The notes under the pieces are model-generated. The model had not been told where the DNA came from and ran no database searches. It saw nothing but the letters and a program-made list of their open reading frames with translations. From positions 1 through 64,000 of the forward strand of contig JAAVZO010000025.1 in assembly GCA_022791685.1 (NCBI GenBank): 64,000 bases of DNA. Direction: 5' to 3'. Positions 16,244 through 60,808 of the stretch are shown in pieces. The DNA comes from Clostridiales bacterium. Its GTDB lineage: Bacteria; Bacillota; Clostridia; Oscillospirales; CAG-272. The stretch's first letter is position 1. Every line of letters begins with the position of its first letter. The position numbers and the translations under genes are program-made.

Positions 16244-17716
16244 TCAGCCGTTTTCCTTAAAGCCTTCGTTTACCTTTTGGATCGCAGCATTGACTGATGA
16301 TTCAACGCCTGTCAACAACGATACAAGGTTTCTGTCATTGTTAGTGAACGCCGTAAACAACACACCCTCACGCAGCTCGTCGCAGAATACAGTATCGCCG
16401 AAATCGAATACACGATTCTTGAACGCAATATCAAGCATATCAGCCGATTCCTCGTCCTGAGTAAACTTGACCTTCAGCGCAACTTCATAGTACGCCGGAA
16501 CAACACTGATACGCGACTCGCACGCCATAGCTTCAAGAATAGCGCCGGTCATTTCGAGATTAGTATTAGTCTTCGGCACACCGAACAGCTCTGCGCCCTC
16601 AATACGAGAATAATACTCCGTCTGATTTTCATCATATTTCGGATATGGCAGAATACCAAAGTTTACGCTGGTATCACGAATAGTTGAGATCTGGAAGCAT
16701 GAGCTATTAGTAAATAACGCATGACCCTGACTGAACAGCTCAATTTCCTCTTCTCTGTTAATTGACTTTGGAACACGATGCCAGATATTATCATCCCAAG
16801 TAATGGTGAATATCTTCTGGCATACATCAATAAATCTCTCGTTTGAAGCGGCTGAGAATACTAATTCACCGTCCGAATTCTTATTGATGGACTTAGTATT
16901 AGCCGCGATCCAGAAGCCGGGCAGTACCTGCTTACCGATGGAAGTATATCCATACTGGTCCTGCTCATCCATCTGCGAATCGCCGTTAATATCTGAAACC
17001 GCAGAACGAGCCAGCTCGCCAAACTTATCAAATGTCCACTTTCCATCAAGTACAAGCTCATACGGATTTTCAAGCTTATAATCCTCAAGCATTTGCTTGT
17101 TGAACAGCATAACGTGTGTAAAATCAAGTGCAGAGATATTAAAATCACCTACTGCGAAGAACTGCGAACCAGATACTTCAAGGTCACCAAGAAGCTGAGC
17201 GTTCCAATAGGGCTTATCGGTGTTAATATTCGGGATGTCATCTAATGTATACAGCATACCTTCCGCAGCATAATTAAACATATGCACGCAGCGTCCAACA
17301 TACACATCATAAGTATCATCGTTCGCCATCATAAATCGTCTCGGATAGTCGCTTCCCTCAATCGTATAGTCGTAATAATTCTCGATCAGATCAAAGTTAA
17401 ATCTCTCTTCAAGCTTGCGTGTACGCTTGTAAACCGCATCGTTTAACACATCTCCGGTCTCACTCTCAACGTCGTGGTAAGGATAGAACAGCGGAGTTGT
17501 GCGAGTCAGCATATTGAACTCAGCGCCGCCGAAGTCCATATCACCAAGATCGTCAGTAACTACAGCCGAACCCTCATCTGTTTCTGATAACCCCCCCCCG
17601 GACGTTTGGACAGAATCAGAATTGTCAGTATCCTTAATATCGCTATTATTCCCACACGCACATGACGCGAGAAGCAATGCTAAGATAATACTGCCTGCTG
17701 TAAATTTCTTAAGCAT
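16244..17716 (-). CDS. Extracellular solute-binding lipoprotein (SBP paralogue 2), phase-variable candidate
   Basis: A 490-residue sugar-binding lipoprotein. Signal peptide ends at LLASC with lipid cysteine about residue 19. Family motifs: TGDVLNDAVYKR, DGKWTFDKF, SADMLDIAFKNRVFDFG. Codons 40-42 are GGG GGG GGG, a nine-G tract only 20 residues after the lipid cysteine. Adding or removing one G puts the reading frame into a stop within about a dozen codons (TAG for eight, TGA for ten), so slipped-strand mispairing would switch the whole mature protein off. The present G9 is the on state. Strong AAGGAGG site before the ATG. Divergent from the AraC gene at 17842. No permease nearby. Confidence 0.87.
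   Translation of the reverse strand: MLKKFTAGSIILALLLASCACGNNSDIKDTDNSDSVQTSGGGLSETDEGSAVVTDDLGDMDFGGAEFNMLTRTTPLFYPYHDVESETGDVLNDAVYKRTRKLEERFNFDLIENYYDYTIEGSDYPRRFMMANDDTYDVYVGRCVHMFNYAAEGMLYTLDDIPNINTDKPYWNAQLLGDLEVSGSQFFAVGDFNISALDFTHVMLFNKQMLEDYKLENPYELVLDGKWTFDKFGELARSAVSDINGDSQMDEQDQYGYTSIGKQVLPGFWIAANTKSINKNSDGELVFSAASNERFIDVCQKIFTITWDDNIWHRVPKSINREEEIELFSQGHALFTNSSCFQISTIRDTSVNFGILPYPKYDENQTEYYSRIEGAELFGVPKTNTNLEMTGAILEAMACESRISVVPAYYEVALKVKFTQDEESADMLDIAFKNRVFDFGDTVFCDELREGVLFTAFTNNDRNLVSLLTGVESSVNAAIQKVNEGFKENG
17591..17599 (-). repeat. G9 homopolymer in SBP 2
   Basis: Nine C on the plus strand, read as G9 in the gene. It encodes three glycines in the linker behind the lipobox. 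Eight or ten G gives an early stop. One of four G8/G9 tracts in the window; I noticed no other G or C run longer than about six. Confidence 0.95.
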
Positions 17717-22129: not shown

Positions 22130-23590
22130 TTATTCCATAAACTCAAGCGTCTTTTTAAAAGCAGCTTCAATCGACGAACGCATAGAATCAACAAGCGATA
22201 CAACGTTATTGTTCTTCTGATTTACAACTGAAGTATTAACCTTTCCAGACAGTTCTTCAGTCCAAGCATAGCCCTCTCCTATATCAAAGCTGCGTGACGA
22301 ACTGATTATGCCAAGCATTTCAATAGAATCATCATTTCTAAGTCCCTTCTGAGCTACCTTAACATTATAGAATACCGGAAGAATATTGGTACTGCTCAGA
22401 TACGACAAAGCGTCCATGATAATTCCAGTGCGCTCAGGCTGCTGATTCGTGACCGGAACGCTCATCGTAAGACAAATATGTGTGCGGTGGCTGTAATATT
22501 TATCCTGATTTTCGTCATATTTCGGGATCGGCACTATACCGAATGTATCGTCCATATCACGATACTTCGAGCTTGCCTTAATTTCAGCGATAGTAAACAG
22601 CGAGCGTCCGTTCTTGAATATCATCTCATAGTGGCTGTTACCGCTTCCGTTCATGAATATGAACTCACCCTCGGTACTGTAAATATTAAACGCCTTTTCA
22701 ATTATGTTGTAGAATCTGTCTGGGTTACTGATAAGCACCGGCTGTCCCTTGTCATCAATAGTTACATAATTTTCACCACCACCAGTTATGAAAGCGTTAA
22801 GCGAATCCTCATATGAAGCCATACCGTAAATCGCATTGCCGCTCTCATTCCATGCAAAGCTGGTGTCACCGTTCAAATTAGCGCCCGCAGCCGCATATTC
22901 ACCGAGCTTGTCAATCGTCCACTTTCCCTCGCGAACAAGGTTATACGGAGTTTCGAGCCCCAAGTCATCAAGCATATTCTCGTTGAAATAGCAGCAGAGC
23001 GTACCTTCAAAGCCGATAAGCGAGAAATCGTTTCCGGCAAAATACAGCTTCTTCTTATCTCCAATAAGCGACTTTTCGGTAATGACCTGATCCCACCAAG
23101 GCTTGTCGAGCTGGAATTCTTGATAATCGAGCAGATTGTAAAGGTAGCCGGACTCCATAAACGACGACATACGGTCACAGCGTATATATGCGACATCGTA
23201 TACATCGTCCTGCGCCAAGATCGCGGTACGATATTTATTATAATTCTGGTCAATATCATCCTCGACGATTTCAAGCTCAAGATTGAACTTATCCTCGATA
23301 AAACGATTGCGCGCGTACACCTCGTCGTCGAGCATCTCACCAGTCTGAGATTCAAAGTCCATATAATGATAGAACCCCCATGTTGTCGAAGCGTTCAAGA
23401 CCGTAAAGGTATCACCATCGCAGTCGAGCTCAGGGAATACGTACTCTGGCTTAGTTTCGGGAGCAGACGAGCTATCATCGCCCGACACGGTATCATTATT
23501 GTCCGTATCGACTGGCTTACCAGTATCGCCGCAGGCAGTCTGCGTAAGCAGCAGCGCCATTAGAAGCGCTATAGATATGAGCTTTTTCAT
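22130..23590 (-). CDS. Extracellular solute-binding lipoprotein (SBP paralogue 3)
   Basis: 486 residues from ATG 23590 (MKKLIS...), which stands ten bases after AAAGG and gives a textbook signal peptide ending QTAC; the first ATG of the track (23608) has no ribosome-binding site. Family motifs: QTGEMLDDEVYARN, EGKWTIDKLG, SIEMLGIISSSRSFDIG. Unlike paralogues 1, 2 and 5 it has no adjacent AraC gene. It has a consensus promoter, with a G8 tract 18 bp upstream of the -35. Probably captures an oligosaccharide for an ABC permease located elsewhere. Confidence 0.85.
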   Translation of the reverse strand: MKKLISIALLMALLLTQTACGDTGKPVDTDNNDTVSGDDSSSAPETKPEYVFPELDCDGDTFTVLNASTTWGFYHYMDFESQTGEMLDDEVYARNRFIEDKFNLELEIVEDDIDQNYNKYRTAILAQDDVYDVAYIRCDRMSSFMESGYLYNLLDYQEFQLDKPWWDQVITEKSLIGDKKKLYFAGNDFSLIGFEGTLCCYFNENMLDDLGLETPYNLVREGKWTIDKLGEYAAAGANLNGDTSFAWNESGNAIYGMASYEDSLNAFITGGGENYVTIDDKGQPVLISNPDRFYNIIEKAFNIYSTEGEFIFMNGSGNSHYEMIFKNGRSLFTIAEIKASSKYRDMDDTFGIVPIPKYDENQDKYYSHRTHICLTMSVPVTNQQPERTGIIMDALSYLSSTNILPVFYNVKVAQKGLRNDDSIEMLGIISSSRSFDIGEGYAWTEELSGKVNTSVVNQKNNNVVSLVDSMRSSIEAAFKKTLEFME

Positions 23591-23625
23591 AGTAAAACAA
23601 CCTTTCATTGAATTAAACTATATAT

Positions 23626-23672: not shown

Positions 23673-23680
23673 CCCCCCCC
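23673..23680 (-). repeat. G8 homopolymer upstream of the SBP 3 promoter
   Basis: Eight C on the plus strand (G8 in the direction of the gene), at roughly -54 to -61 from the predicted start. Intergenic. The position fits modulation of promoter strength or of an activator site by tract length. Confidence 0.9.
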
Positions 23681-58197: not shown

Positions 58198-58278
58198 GAA
58201 TTATAAAATTTTGCGGCAAACCGAAACACGAAGTATTCAAATATATTTTAAATATATCGTTTGGTTCTCTATATACAC

Positions 58279-59154
58279 TTAAAATCTACAGTTCACAATA
58301 GTTATCGAATCTGCCGCAAAAATTTTAACAATTATTTGCAGCGCTTCTTCGAAGCTATTGTAGTTAAAATAACCCCCCCCCGCAATTGCTGCGAGTGCGA
58401 GAGATGTTGAATCTGCTGTTTTTGCAGAAGTCTCAGCTTCAGCAGCTGCTTTTTCAGCTGCGATGAGGTCTGCAACCGTTACATCGCTGAGGAGGCACTG
58501 ACCGTATACGGAAGGATCGCTCGAAGCTTTATCGCAATCGTCTGACCAACCGAGACATATGTTACGAACGCCATTACCCTCTGCGTCGTCGTCATACTGG
58601 AAATCAATACCGAGGTACTGACCTGCTCCGCCAACTGCGCTTACATCAAATGCTGCCTCAAAGATGAATCCATCTGTTGTTCTTGTGAGAGCGTATGCAC
58701 CTTCATCGAAGGTGTTTTCGCTCTTGTCAACACACAGCCACTTCTGTATCTTAGTATCGTTGTTGTTGGAGTTGTCAAGCTGAAGGAATACTTCAACAGT
58801 ATCCTTCTCCCAGAAAGCGCCTCCAACGGTAGCTATCGTATTATCCTTTATTTCATAAAGGATATAGAGTGTACTCTTGCCATCCCAAAGAACCTTTGCA
58901 TCCATTGTTGCATAGTCCTTGCCTGCCACCTTACTTGTATCACCGAACCATGACGAAGCATTTTCCTTTACGGTATCGACCGAAATCGTTGGAGCATATT
59001 TCCATGCGTCGTCGATCTTACCATCAACAGTGATATCTGCAATGTAAGCTTCACAGGTCTTGCGTCCTGCTACTGCCGGAGCAGCGAGAGTGTTTACCGC
59101 CAGCAGCGATGAAAGCAGCGCTGCCGTCGAAAGTGTTGCGAGTATCTTTTTCAT
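58279..59154 (-). CDS. Secreted CBM9/DOMON-like carbohydrate-binding protein, slippage-altered C-terminus
   Basis: 291 residues as read. Signal peptide to about residue 29 (LLSSLLAVNTLAAPAVA). A beta-sandwich of the CBM9/DOMON type follows: DGKIDDAWKYAPTISVD, KVLWDGKSTLYILYEIKD, FWEKDTVEVFLQLDN, GFIFEAAFDVSA and LGIDFQYDDDAEG. Then an Ala/Glu helix and SLALAAIAGGG at a G9 tract (codons 258-261). In the present frame the tail is 30 residues of no recognisable kind. With eight G the frame gives GVILTTIASKKRCK and stops, a hydrophobic segment plus basic end typical of a C-terminal membrane anchor; with ten it stops after GGGLF. The anchored form is likely the native design. Confidence 0.82.
   Translation of the reverse strand: MKKILATLSTAALLSSLLAVNTLAAPAVAGRKTCEAYIADITVDGKIDDAWKYAPTISVDTVKENASSWFGDTSKVAGKDYATMDAKVLWDGKSTLYILYEIKDNTIATVGGAFWEKDTVEVFLQLDNSNNNDTKIQKWLCVDKSENTFDEGAYALTRTTDGFIFEAAFDVSAVGGAGQYLGIDFQYDDDAEGNGVRNICLGWSDDCDKASSDPSVYGQCLLSDVTVADLIAAEKAAAEAETSAKTADSTSLALAAIAGGGYFNYNSFEEALQIIVKIFAADSITIVNCRF
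58373..58381 (-). repeat. G9 homopolymer in the CBM9-like gene
   Basis: Nine C on the plus strand. Tract length selects one of three C-termini: G8 membrane anchor (273 residues), G9 30-residue tail (291), G10 short truncated end (263). Confidence 0.95.
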
Positions 59155-59344: not shown

Positions 59345-60808
59345 TTATTCTCTATTCCATTCGGCGATGAACTTATCGACCGCTTCGCCGACCTTCGATT
59401 CAACTCCCGCAAATGAGCTTGCAAGCTCAGCCTTGCCTAATAAAGCTTTAGTCAGAACCTTCGCCGAGCCGCCGAAATCATATATCGAATTGAAATCAAG
59501 ATACAGATTATTGAATACATAATCAAGCATTTCGGTGTTATCCTCGTCGCGGGCTACCTTCTGCTTCAGCATAAGATTATAGGTCTGGTGGCGTACATTC
59601 TTGTACGAGTAATAGCCAAGCGCTTCAGTGATAAAGCCGACAAATTCCTCGTCAACATTTTCCGGGATAGCGACATACGCATCTGCCCACGGGTTACAAA
59701 ACGAACGATAGGTCTCCTGCGACTCCTCAAACTTCGGGAACGGGAGTATCAGATAATCGCTTTCCATATCACGAAGATATACAATAGAGCTCTCGACAAA
59801 GTGATTCAAAAAGAGCGCCCTGTCCTCCATGAATAGCTTGTGAATAACATCGTTGAACTCACGGCTTTTGACATTAGAATTGATAACTCTGTTTACCGCC
59901 TCAATAACGCTGACAGTATGCTCGTTCATATAATCGACCGTAAGCGATTTGCCGTCGTCAGATACCTTTGAATAATTAACGTTATTACCCACTGCGAGAC
60001 TCTCGTCGCCCGCATTCGCAACGGCAATGAAGTCGTCCCATGTATCCAGTTTGCCGTCGTCATTGAGGTCGCGGTCTAAATCCTTTGTCAGCCTTTCAAC
60101 GACGTCCCATGTCCATTTGCCGTCGCGCACCAGCTGCGGGAAGTTTTCGGTAAAGCCGAAATCCTCCATAAGGTTTAAATTAACGTACATACAGGACGCC
60201 ATCTGGTACATCGACGGGGAAATATCTCCGGTCGTATAGTACATTATATCGTTGAGGCGCAAGTTGTCGTACATAAGGCTGCTCCACCAATTTTCACTGA
60301 GTGAAAGATATGGAACATCGCTGAGATTTGCCAGTATACCTTCGCGCGCAACGCCTGAAAACGCCATTACCGGCGCTATGCAGAGCGAATACTCGTCGTC
60401 ATTTGCAAGTACACTGTTTTTCATCGAAGCAACACCGTCACTCGCCCAAGTCATCTGTACATAATCAATATTGATATTGTACTTTGCTTCAATCGCCCTG
60501 TCACGTCTGAAAAGCGCGTCGTTGACGATATCGCCGTTTTCTGACTCTCCCGGCATATTAACGTGCATATCTGGGTGGTCATTCGCGTCAAGTATCATAA
60601 ATACCCTTCCGTCGAAGTCTTTATCACCAAGTTCGTTAAGTCTGTCTCTTTCAACCTCCACGGGCTCGGTGGTGACAGCGTCACCTTCGGTGTCAGTGTT
60701 TTCAATTACCCCCCCCCGCGACTCCTGTCCGCATGAGGCAACCGAAGCCAAACTTACACAGAGCAGCAGTGTTGTCAGTTTGAGCTTTAAACTCTTTTCC
60801 TTCTTCAT
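59345..60808 (-). CDS. Extracellular solute-binding lipoprotein (SBP paralogue 4), phase-variable candidate
   Basis: 487 residues. Signal peptide ends VASC with lipid cysteine 26. Family motifs ENGDIVNDALFRRD, DGKWTWDVV and NTEMLDYVFNNLYLDF. A G9 tract covers codons 31-34 (SRGGV), five residues after the lipid cysteine. Eight G makes tcg cgg ggg ggg taa, an immediate stop; ten G gives a stop two codons on, so the gene is on only at nine (or steps of three). It has a consensus promoter and a 94-base structured leader. It is about 60 percent alike by eye to SBP 5 next door, a recent tandem duplication. No permease nearby. Confidence 0.87.
   Translation of the reverse strand: MKKEKSLKLKLTTLLLCVSLASVASCGQESRGGVIENTDTEGDAVTTEPVEVERDRLNELGDKDFDGRVFMILDANDHPDMHVNMPGESENGDIVNDALFRRDRAIEAKYNINIDYVQMTWASDGVASMKNSVLANDDEYSLCIAPVMAFSGVAREGILANLSDVPYLSLSENWWSSLMYDNLRLNDIMYYTTGDISPSMYQMASCMYVNLNLMEDFGFTENFPQLVRDGKWTWDVVERLTKDLDRDLNDDGKLDTWDDFIAVANAGDESLAVGNNVNYSKVSDDGKSLTVDYMNEHTVSVIEAVNRVINSNVKSREFNDVIHKLFMEDRALFLNHFVESSIVYLRDMESDYLILPFPKFEESQETYRSFCNPWADAYVAIPENVDEEFVGFITEALGYYSYKNVRHQTYNLMLKQKVARDEDNTEMLDYVFNNLYLDFNSIYDFGGSAKVLTKALLGKAELASSFAGVESKVGEAVDKFIAEWNRE
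60709..60717 (-). repeat. G9 homopolymer in SBP 4
   Basis: Nine C on the plus strand, G9 in the coding direction. Both single-base changes create a stop within three codons. SBP 5, its close paralogue, has no tract at the same place. Confidence 0.95.

Follow-up and report, generated by a model that had tools for sequence, protein, structure and literature searches.

A CBM9 protein encoded in the 64,000-nucleotide stretch of Clostridiales bacterium DNA analyzed here (the window) probably undergoes C-terminal phase variation of its anchoring by slippage at a run of nine G residues (G9), within a large genome-wide poly-G phasome. The gene product is a CBM9 protein on the basis of significant profile matches, since PF06452 (CBM9_1) scored 81.5 bits against a cut-off of 23.4 and the CBM9 of xylanase 1i82 was matched with an E value of 5.5e-14. 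Its parts are arranged in the order of signal peptide, CBM9 domain, alanine/glutamate-rich linker, and a C-terminus crossing the G9 run (Table 1).

Table 1. Coordinates of the features discussed, in window positions
Feature	Position	Strand	Basis
CBM9-like protein CDS, G9 phase as assembled, 291 aa	58279..59154	-	ORF and Pfam CBM9_1
Probable signal peptide MKKILATLSTAALLSSLLAVNTLAA	59080..59154	-	boundary by eye, sequence reading; conserved in paralogues
CBM9 domain, residues 43-223	58486..59028	-	CBM9_1 E 9.4e-23; PDB 1i82 profile match
G9 tract (C9 on the + strand), proposed slippage site	58373..58381	-	sequence, run counts, in silico phases
Anchor-frame codons past the tract, read in G8/G11 as VILTTIASKKRCK and stop	58332..58372	-	in silico phases; 20-residue uncharged run and KKRCK
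3'UTR hairpin, arms common to L002 and L003; source of the translated G9-phase tail	58204..58327	-	paralogue comparison, folding
Tract of nine G immediately past the lipobox; solute-binding-type lipoprotein 59345-60808, assembled in frame	60709..60717	-	run counts, frame check
Tract of nine G past the lipobox; lipoprotein 16244-17716, assembled in frame	17591..17599	-	run counts, frame check
G8 tract upstream of lipoprotein gene 22130-23608	23673..23680	-	run counts

In the mechanism that we propose, the G9 run, situated among the codons for the C-terminal anchor of this secreted protein, would be a contingency tract prone to slippage; replication slippage would change the tract length and hence the reading frame close to the 3' end of the gene, past the domain. 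A tract of G8 or G11 would keep the hydrophobic segment with its basic tail, leaving the protein on the cell surface; with G9, or with G10 or G7, the anchor would be lost and the protein exported without it. Since the signal peptide and the CBM9 domain are the same in every phase, such a switch would alter the location of the protein rather than its presence.

The three phases were read in silico. The G8/G11 phase gave ...SLALAAIAGG(G)VILTTIASKKRCK and a stop, with GGVILTTIASKKRCK as the C-terminal end; the assembled G9 phase continued from ...AIAGGG into 30 further residues (YFNYNSFEEALQIIVKIFAADSITIVNCRF), and the G10/G7 phase terminated at ...AIAGGGLF. The preliminary description had assigned a tail of 30-odd residues to G9, an anchor to one G less and an end at GGGLF to one G more, and these assignments proved exact. 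Its hydrophobic stretch with a basic tail, restored by G8, was likewise recovered as 20 uncharged residues followed by KKRCK; the corresponding run in G10 comprised 15 residues with nothing after it. Judged from its sequence, the G8 C-terminus would suit a C-terminally anchored surface protein, in which a hydrophobic stretch of about 18–22 residues precedes a basic tail, and the occurrence of different C-termini in all three frames, generated by a repeat tract near the 3' end, is what characterizes a C-terminal phase-variable gene. Against this reading, the Kyte–Doolittle value of the G8 anchor was 1.77 as compared with 2.0–2.3 in the homologues computed, indicating a weaker anchor in the window protein, and the G9 tail itself contains a fairly hydrophobic stretch (1.55). 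Runs of this length exceed the chance expectation: the window contains 18 C/G runs of length 5, none of length 6 or 7, and four of length 8–9, and about 0.13 C runs of length 9 would be expected from its base composition.

To identify the conserved frame, the C-termini of ten homologues were read, five from the genome to which the window belongs (L002, L004, L005, L006, and L007) and five from other genomes (L038, L039, L041, L043, and L075). All ten ended in a hydrophobic stretch with a basic tail, for example SLAALAVSAGAIVALKKRK; the longer and more distant match L042 had the same type of C-terminal end, and L074 was a repeat of the L038 protein. The preliminary description had regarded a 30-residue tail shared by homologues as incompatible with its proposal, and nothing like that tail was found in any of the ten. 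Past the anchor-frame stop, the in-genome paralogues have much of the downstream sequence in common, including the arms of a long hairpin; the hairpin in the window folded 2.7 sd below shuffled sequences. The tail was accordingly rejected as an evolved domain, being translated 3'UTR whose sequence the paralogues share. As the tail is absent from every homologue read and represents translated 3'UTR, it is the anchored frame that is conserved. As for the type of anchor, five sortase matches were found in the genome, and sorting-signal models matched L038, L039, and L041 below the cut-off only and neither L002 nor L003; on sequence grounds, the anchor could be either a membrane segment or a sortase signal.

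Because the translated 3'UTR tail shows no sign of design, a plain on/off outcome has to be weighed seriously: slippage would be real, but the unanchored forms would be degraded or useless and the G8 form alone would matter. Most tracts of this genome do sit where slippage would abolish the product. In the CBM9 genes, however, the tract lies past the whole domain in two paralogues and affects only the anchor, and we therefore consider this outcome unlikely.

The two close paralogues of the window gene in the same genome, L002 and L003 (70 and 68% identity), bear directly on the proposed switching of the anchor. In L002, the tract site reads GGTGGAGGGG and is thus interrupted, the anchor frame is kept, and the C-terminal end is LLAACGGGVLLAATTVATKRRK. 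In L003, the corresponding site carries G9 and the frame is off-anchor, stopping at GGGYC; G10 or G7 would yield its anchor. The tract is therefore present in the anchor codons of two of the three copies, both off-anchor as assembled, and the third copy is interrupted and on-anchor. The dN/dS between the bodies of L002 and L003 was 0.14, which argues against decay. A search of genomes and viral contigs for a second genome of the species returned only Candidatus Flemingibacterium merdigallinarum and a water-deer Clostridia bacterium, and nothing viral; the CBM9 genes of both are in the anchor frame. The toggle between cell-bound and released forms put forward in the preliminary description was partly supported by the conserved anchor frame, by the off-anchor G9 paralogue, and by the phasome setting described below, and we infer from these the variation in tract length, the anchoring at the surface, and the release of the G9 and G10 forms.

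The whole genome (G000; 2.49 Mb in 51 contigs, 86% complete) contains 54 G runs of eight or more, namely 48 of G9 and two each of G8, G10, and G11. Within 301 kb fetched around the tracts, the C/G runs numbered 40, 2, 0, 2, 48, 2, and 2 for lengths 5 to 11, respectively. Among 394 genomes of the order, no other had more than 11 runs of exactly G9, and five congeners had 0–2 tracts of G9 or longer each. Since 48 of the 54 tracts are G9 regardless of frame, the G9 at the window locus is not anomalous. This count speaks against the alternative that 58373–58381 was assembled with a surplus G and that every cell carries G8, an idea that draws on the error-proneness of homopolymers and on the conserved C-terminus given by G8. 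Considering also that no gene is broken elsewhere in the ORF map of the window and that the paralogue L003 is off-anchor too, we hold such an error to be very improbable. The same uniformity nevertheless tells against our preferred reading of C-terminal phase variation, as 89% of the tracts share one length, a tighter distribution than that of the Campylobacter G tracts, which peak at 9 with 53% at 9 and 26% at 10 (PMC6321876).

The CBM9 switch would be part of this 54-tract phasome, most of which is located at solute-binding lipoprotein genes. Thirty tracts adjoin the lipobox of solute-binding-type lipoproteins, a label based on the lipobox and on two members out of eight that matched SBP_bac_1 weakly; a search for a relative of this lipoprotein family with a solved structure found none. 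At the assembled length, 14 of the 30 genes are in frame and 16 out of frame, where one third would be expected in frame if phase were random (P = 0.09 for at least 14 of 30). At least 432 open codons remain downstream in 15 of the 16 out-of-frame genes; the exception (L096 2646) has 325. A frame close to random in otherwise intact genes is the usual mark of contingency loci, and the excess of long homopolymers at surface genes in this genome, with the out-of-frame genes otherwise intact, is the pattern of a phasome. The family comprises 95 lipoproteins in this genome, 112, 92, and 143 in three congeners, and 7 in a fourth; since most of the genus has a family of such size, what sets this genome apart is its tracts. 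In G000, G001, G003, and G005, the family has about 90–140 genes per genome, and Pfam matches were weak or absent in the members scanned. At L103 4375 (G000 C29:34974), an AraC-type ORF reads through C9 into the neighboring gene that follows, which encodes a solute-binding-type lipoprotein, forming one 812-aa frame as assembled. Long poly-G is found at contig starts in G024 and G014; it resembles a sequencing artefact, which the G9 tracts inside the contigs of G000 do not.

Three further tracts (L108 7406, 9061, and 10111) appear, from sequence inspection, to lie between -35-like and -10-like hexamers, as in TTGACA-GC-G9-TGTGT-TATAAT with a spacer of 16. The genes they precede are two CBM9 paralogues and one lipoprotein-like gene; a third CBM9 paralogue at L108 has a tract-free promoter.

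A possible cause of tract instability was found in mutS, which is split in this genome by an inserted base (C28:16056-18654, L117; 703 codons, followed by the last 178 in another frame). An A run in the gene is A7, one base more than in four congeners at that place, and mutS is full length in 15 relatives; the adjoining mutL is open over the whole profile. The mutS frameshift could be reversible, or could be an assembly error; no comparable break was seen in the ORF map of the window. In Neisseria, loss of mismatch repair increases phase variation a hundredfold or more (PMC8875331). The split gene, together with the scarcity of tracts in the congeners, might suggest that mismatch repair was lost in the lineage, that G runs are consequently unstable, and that the CBM9 gene is merely damaged with no selected switch. 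However, the out-of-frame genes are otherwise intact, the tracts are concentrated in genes for surface lipoproteins and in promoter spacers, L002 and L003 are under purifying selection, and a recent loss of mutS alone does not yield 48 runs of exactly nine. Damage of this kind is thus improbable in our judgment, and a selected switch of the anchor remains the preferred reading.

The sequences flanking the tracts were also distinctive. The base before the long tracts is C in 91% and the base after is T in 84%, whereas the figures at short G runs are about 40% and 30%. Across the tract loci counted (L078–L116 and the window, e.g., 17591, 23673, and 60709), the motif YTAWYWG lies within 15 nt after the tract in 24 of 54 cases (44%) for G8 and longer, and with shuffled flanks the count never exceeded 8. 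An association with any G run was rejected, given a frequency of 0–1% after G2–G6 runs. Where the coding strand carries G, the motif occurs at 5 of 14 sites; where that strand carries C, at 12 of 16; and among the other sites, at 7 of 24. A cause at the protein level is therefore unlikely, and its presence in either strand orientation and elsewhere makes it look like a DNA feature. The window CBM9 tract (TTATTTT) and that of L003 (CTGTTAG) each differ from it by one mismatch. In other species, the motif was found behind 1 of 64 tracts, although C before and T after do recur. In G123, of the same family, two loci (L148 and L150) have G9 directly after a lipobox-like sequence, in the form gtcgtgc-G9-TAATACC. 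YTAWYWG is not expected of plain slippage and in this respect counts against the preferred reading. We tentatively raise the possibility that the tracts, instead of arising by simple slippage, are copies of a composite DNA element, C-G9-(0–4 nt)-YTAWYWG, which a dedicated mechanism of this species would make or maintain and which would have been placed, in either orientation, in lipoprotein genes and promoter regions by the dozen. A single system might then govern the switching of much of the nutrient-binding surface protein set and of the anchor of the CBM9 proteins.

If C-terminal phase variation of the CBM9 anchor is correct, a gut Clostridia lineage would possess a poly-G phasome of Campylobacter size acting on nutrient-binding lipoproteins and on the anchoring of carbohydrate-binding proteins. 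Clonal cells would then vary in their binding targets and in the retention or shedding of a binding protein, and the split mutS would offer a testable cause for the phasome.

The kind of switch is already known from Neisseria and Streptococcus agalactiae. PMC5320596 describes C-terminal phase variation as a class and cites S. agalactiae for C-terminal wall-attachment motifs that are gained or lost through repeats. As in the genes of that class, the repeat tract is near the 3' end and the C-terminus differs among the three frames, with an attachment motif added or removed in S. agalactiae; unlike there, the tract here is G9, the lineage is an uncultured one within Clostridia, the protein is a CBM9 protein that has paralogues both with and without a tract, and variation among the frames is predicted from the sequence. 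The G-tract pilus switch of Bifidobacterium breve (PMC9187656) similarly involves a Gram-positive commensal of the gut, a G tract within a gene, and a surface product under slippage control, which is proposed in our case, but there the tract parts the signal peptide from the rest of the protein and acts as on/off, whereas here it lies in the anchor past the domain. With the Campylobacter phasome, the genome shares many G/C tracts and a peak length of 9, and differs in that the targets are mostly solute-binding-type lipoproteins and nearly all are of length 9; in the present genome, many of the tracts have YTAWYWG behind them. The spacer tracts resemble known promoter phase variation, in which the distance from the -35 to the -10 hexamer varies with the length of an intervening homopolymer, and differ from it in having been found through sequence only, their effect on expression being predicted. 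Compared with the open-access literature, the lineage, the size of the set, its targets, and the flanking motif look new.
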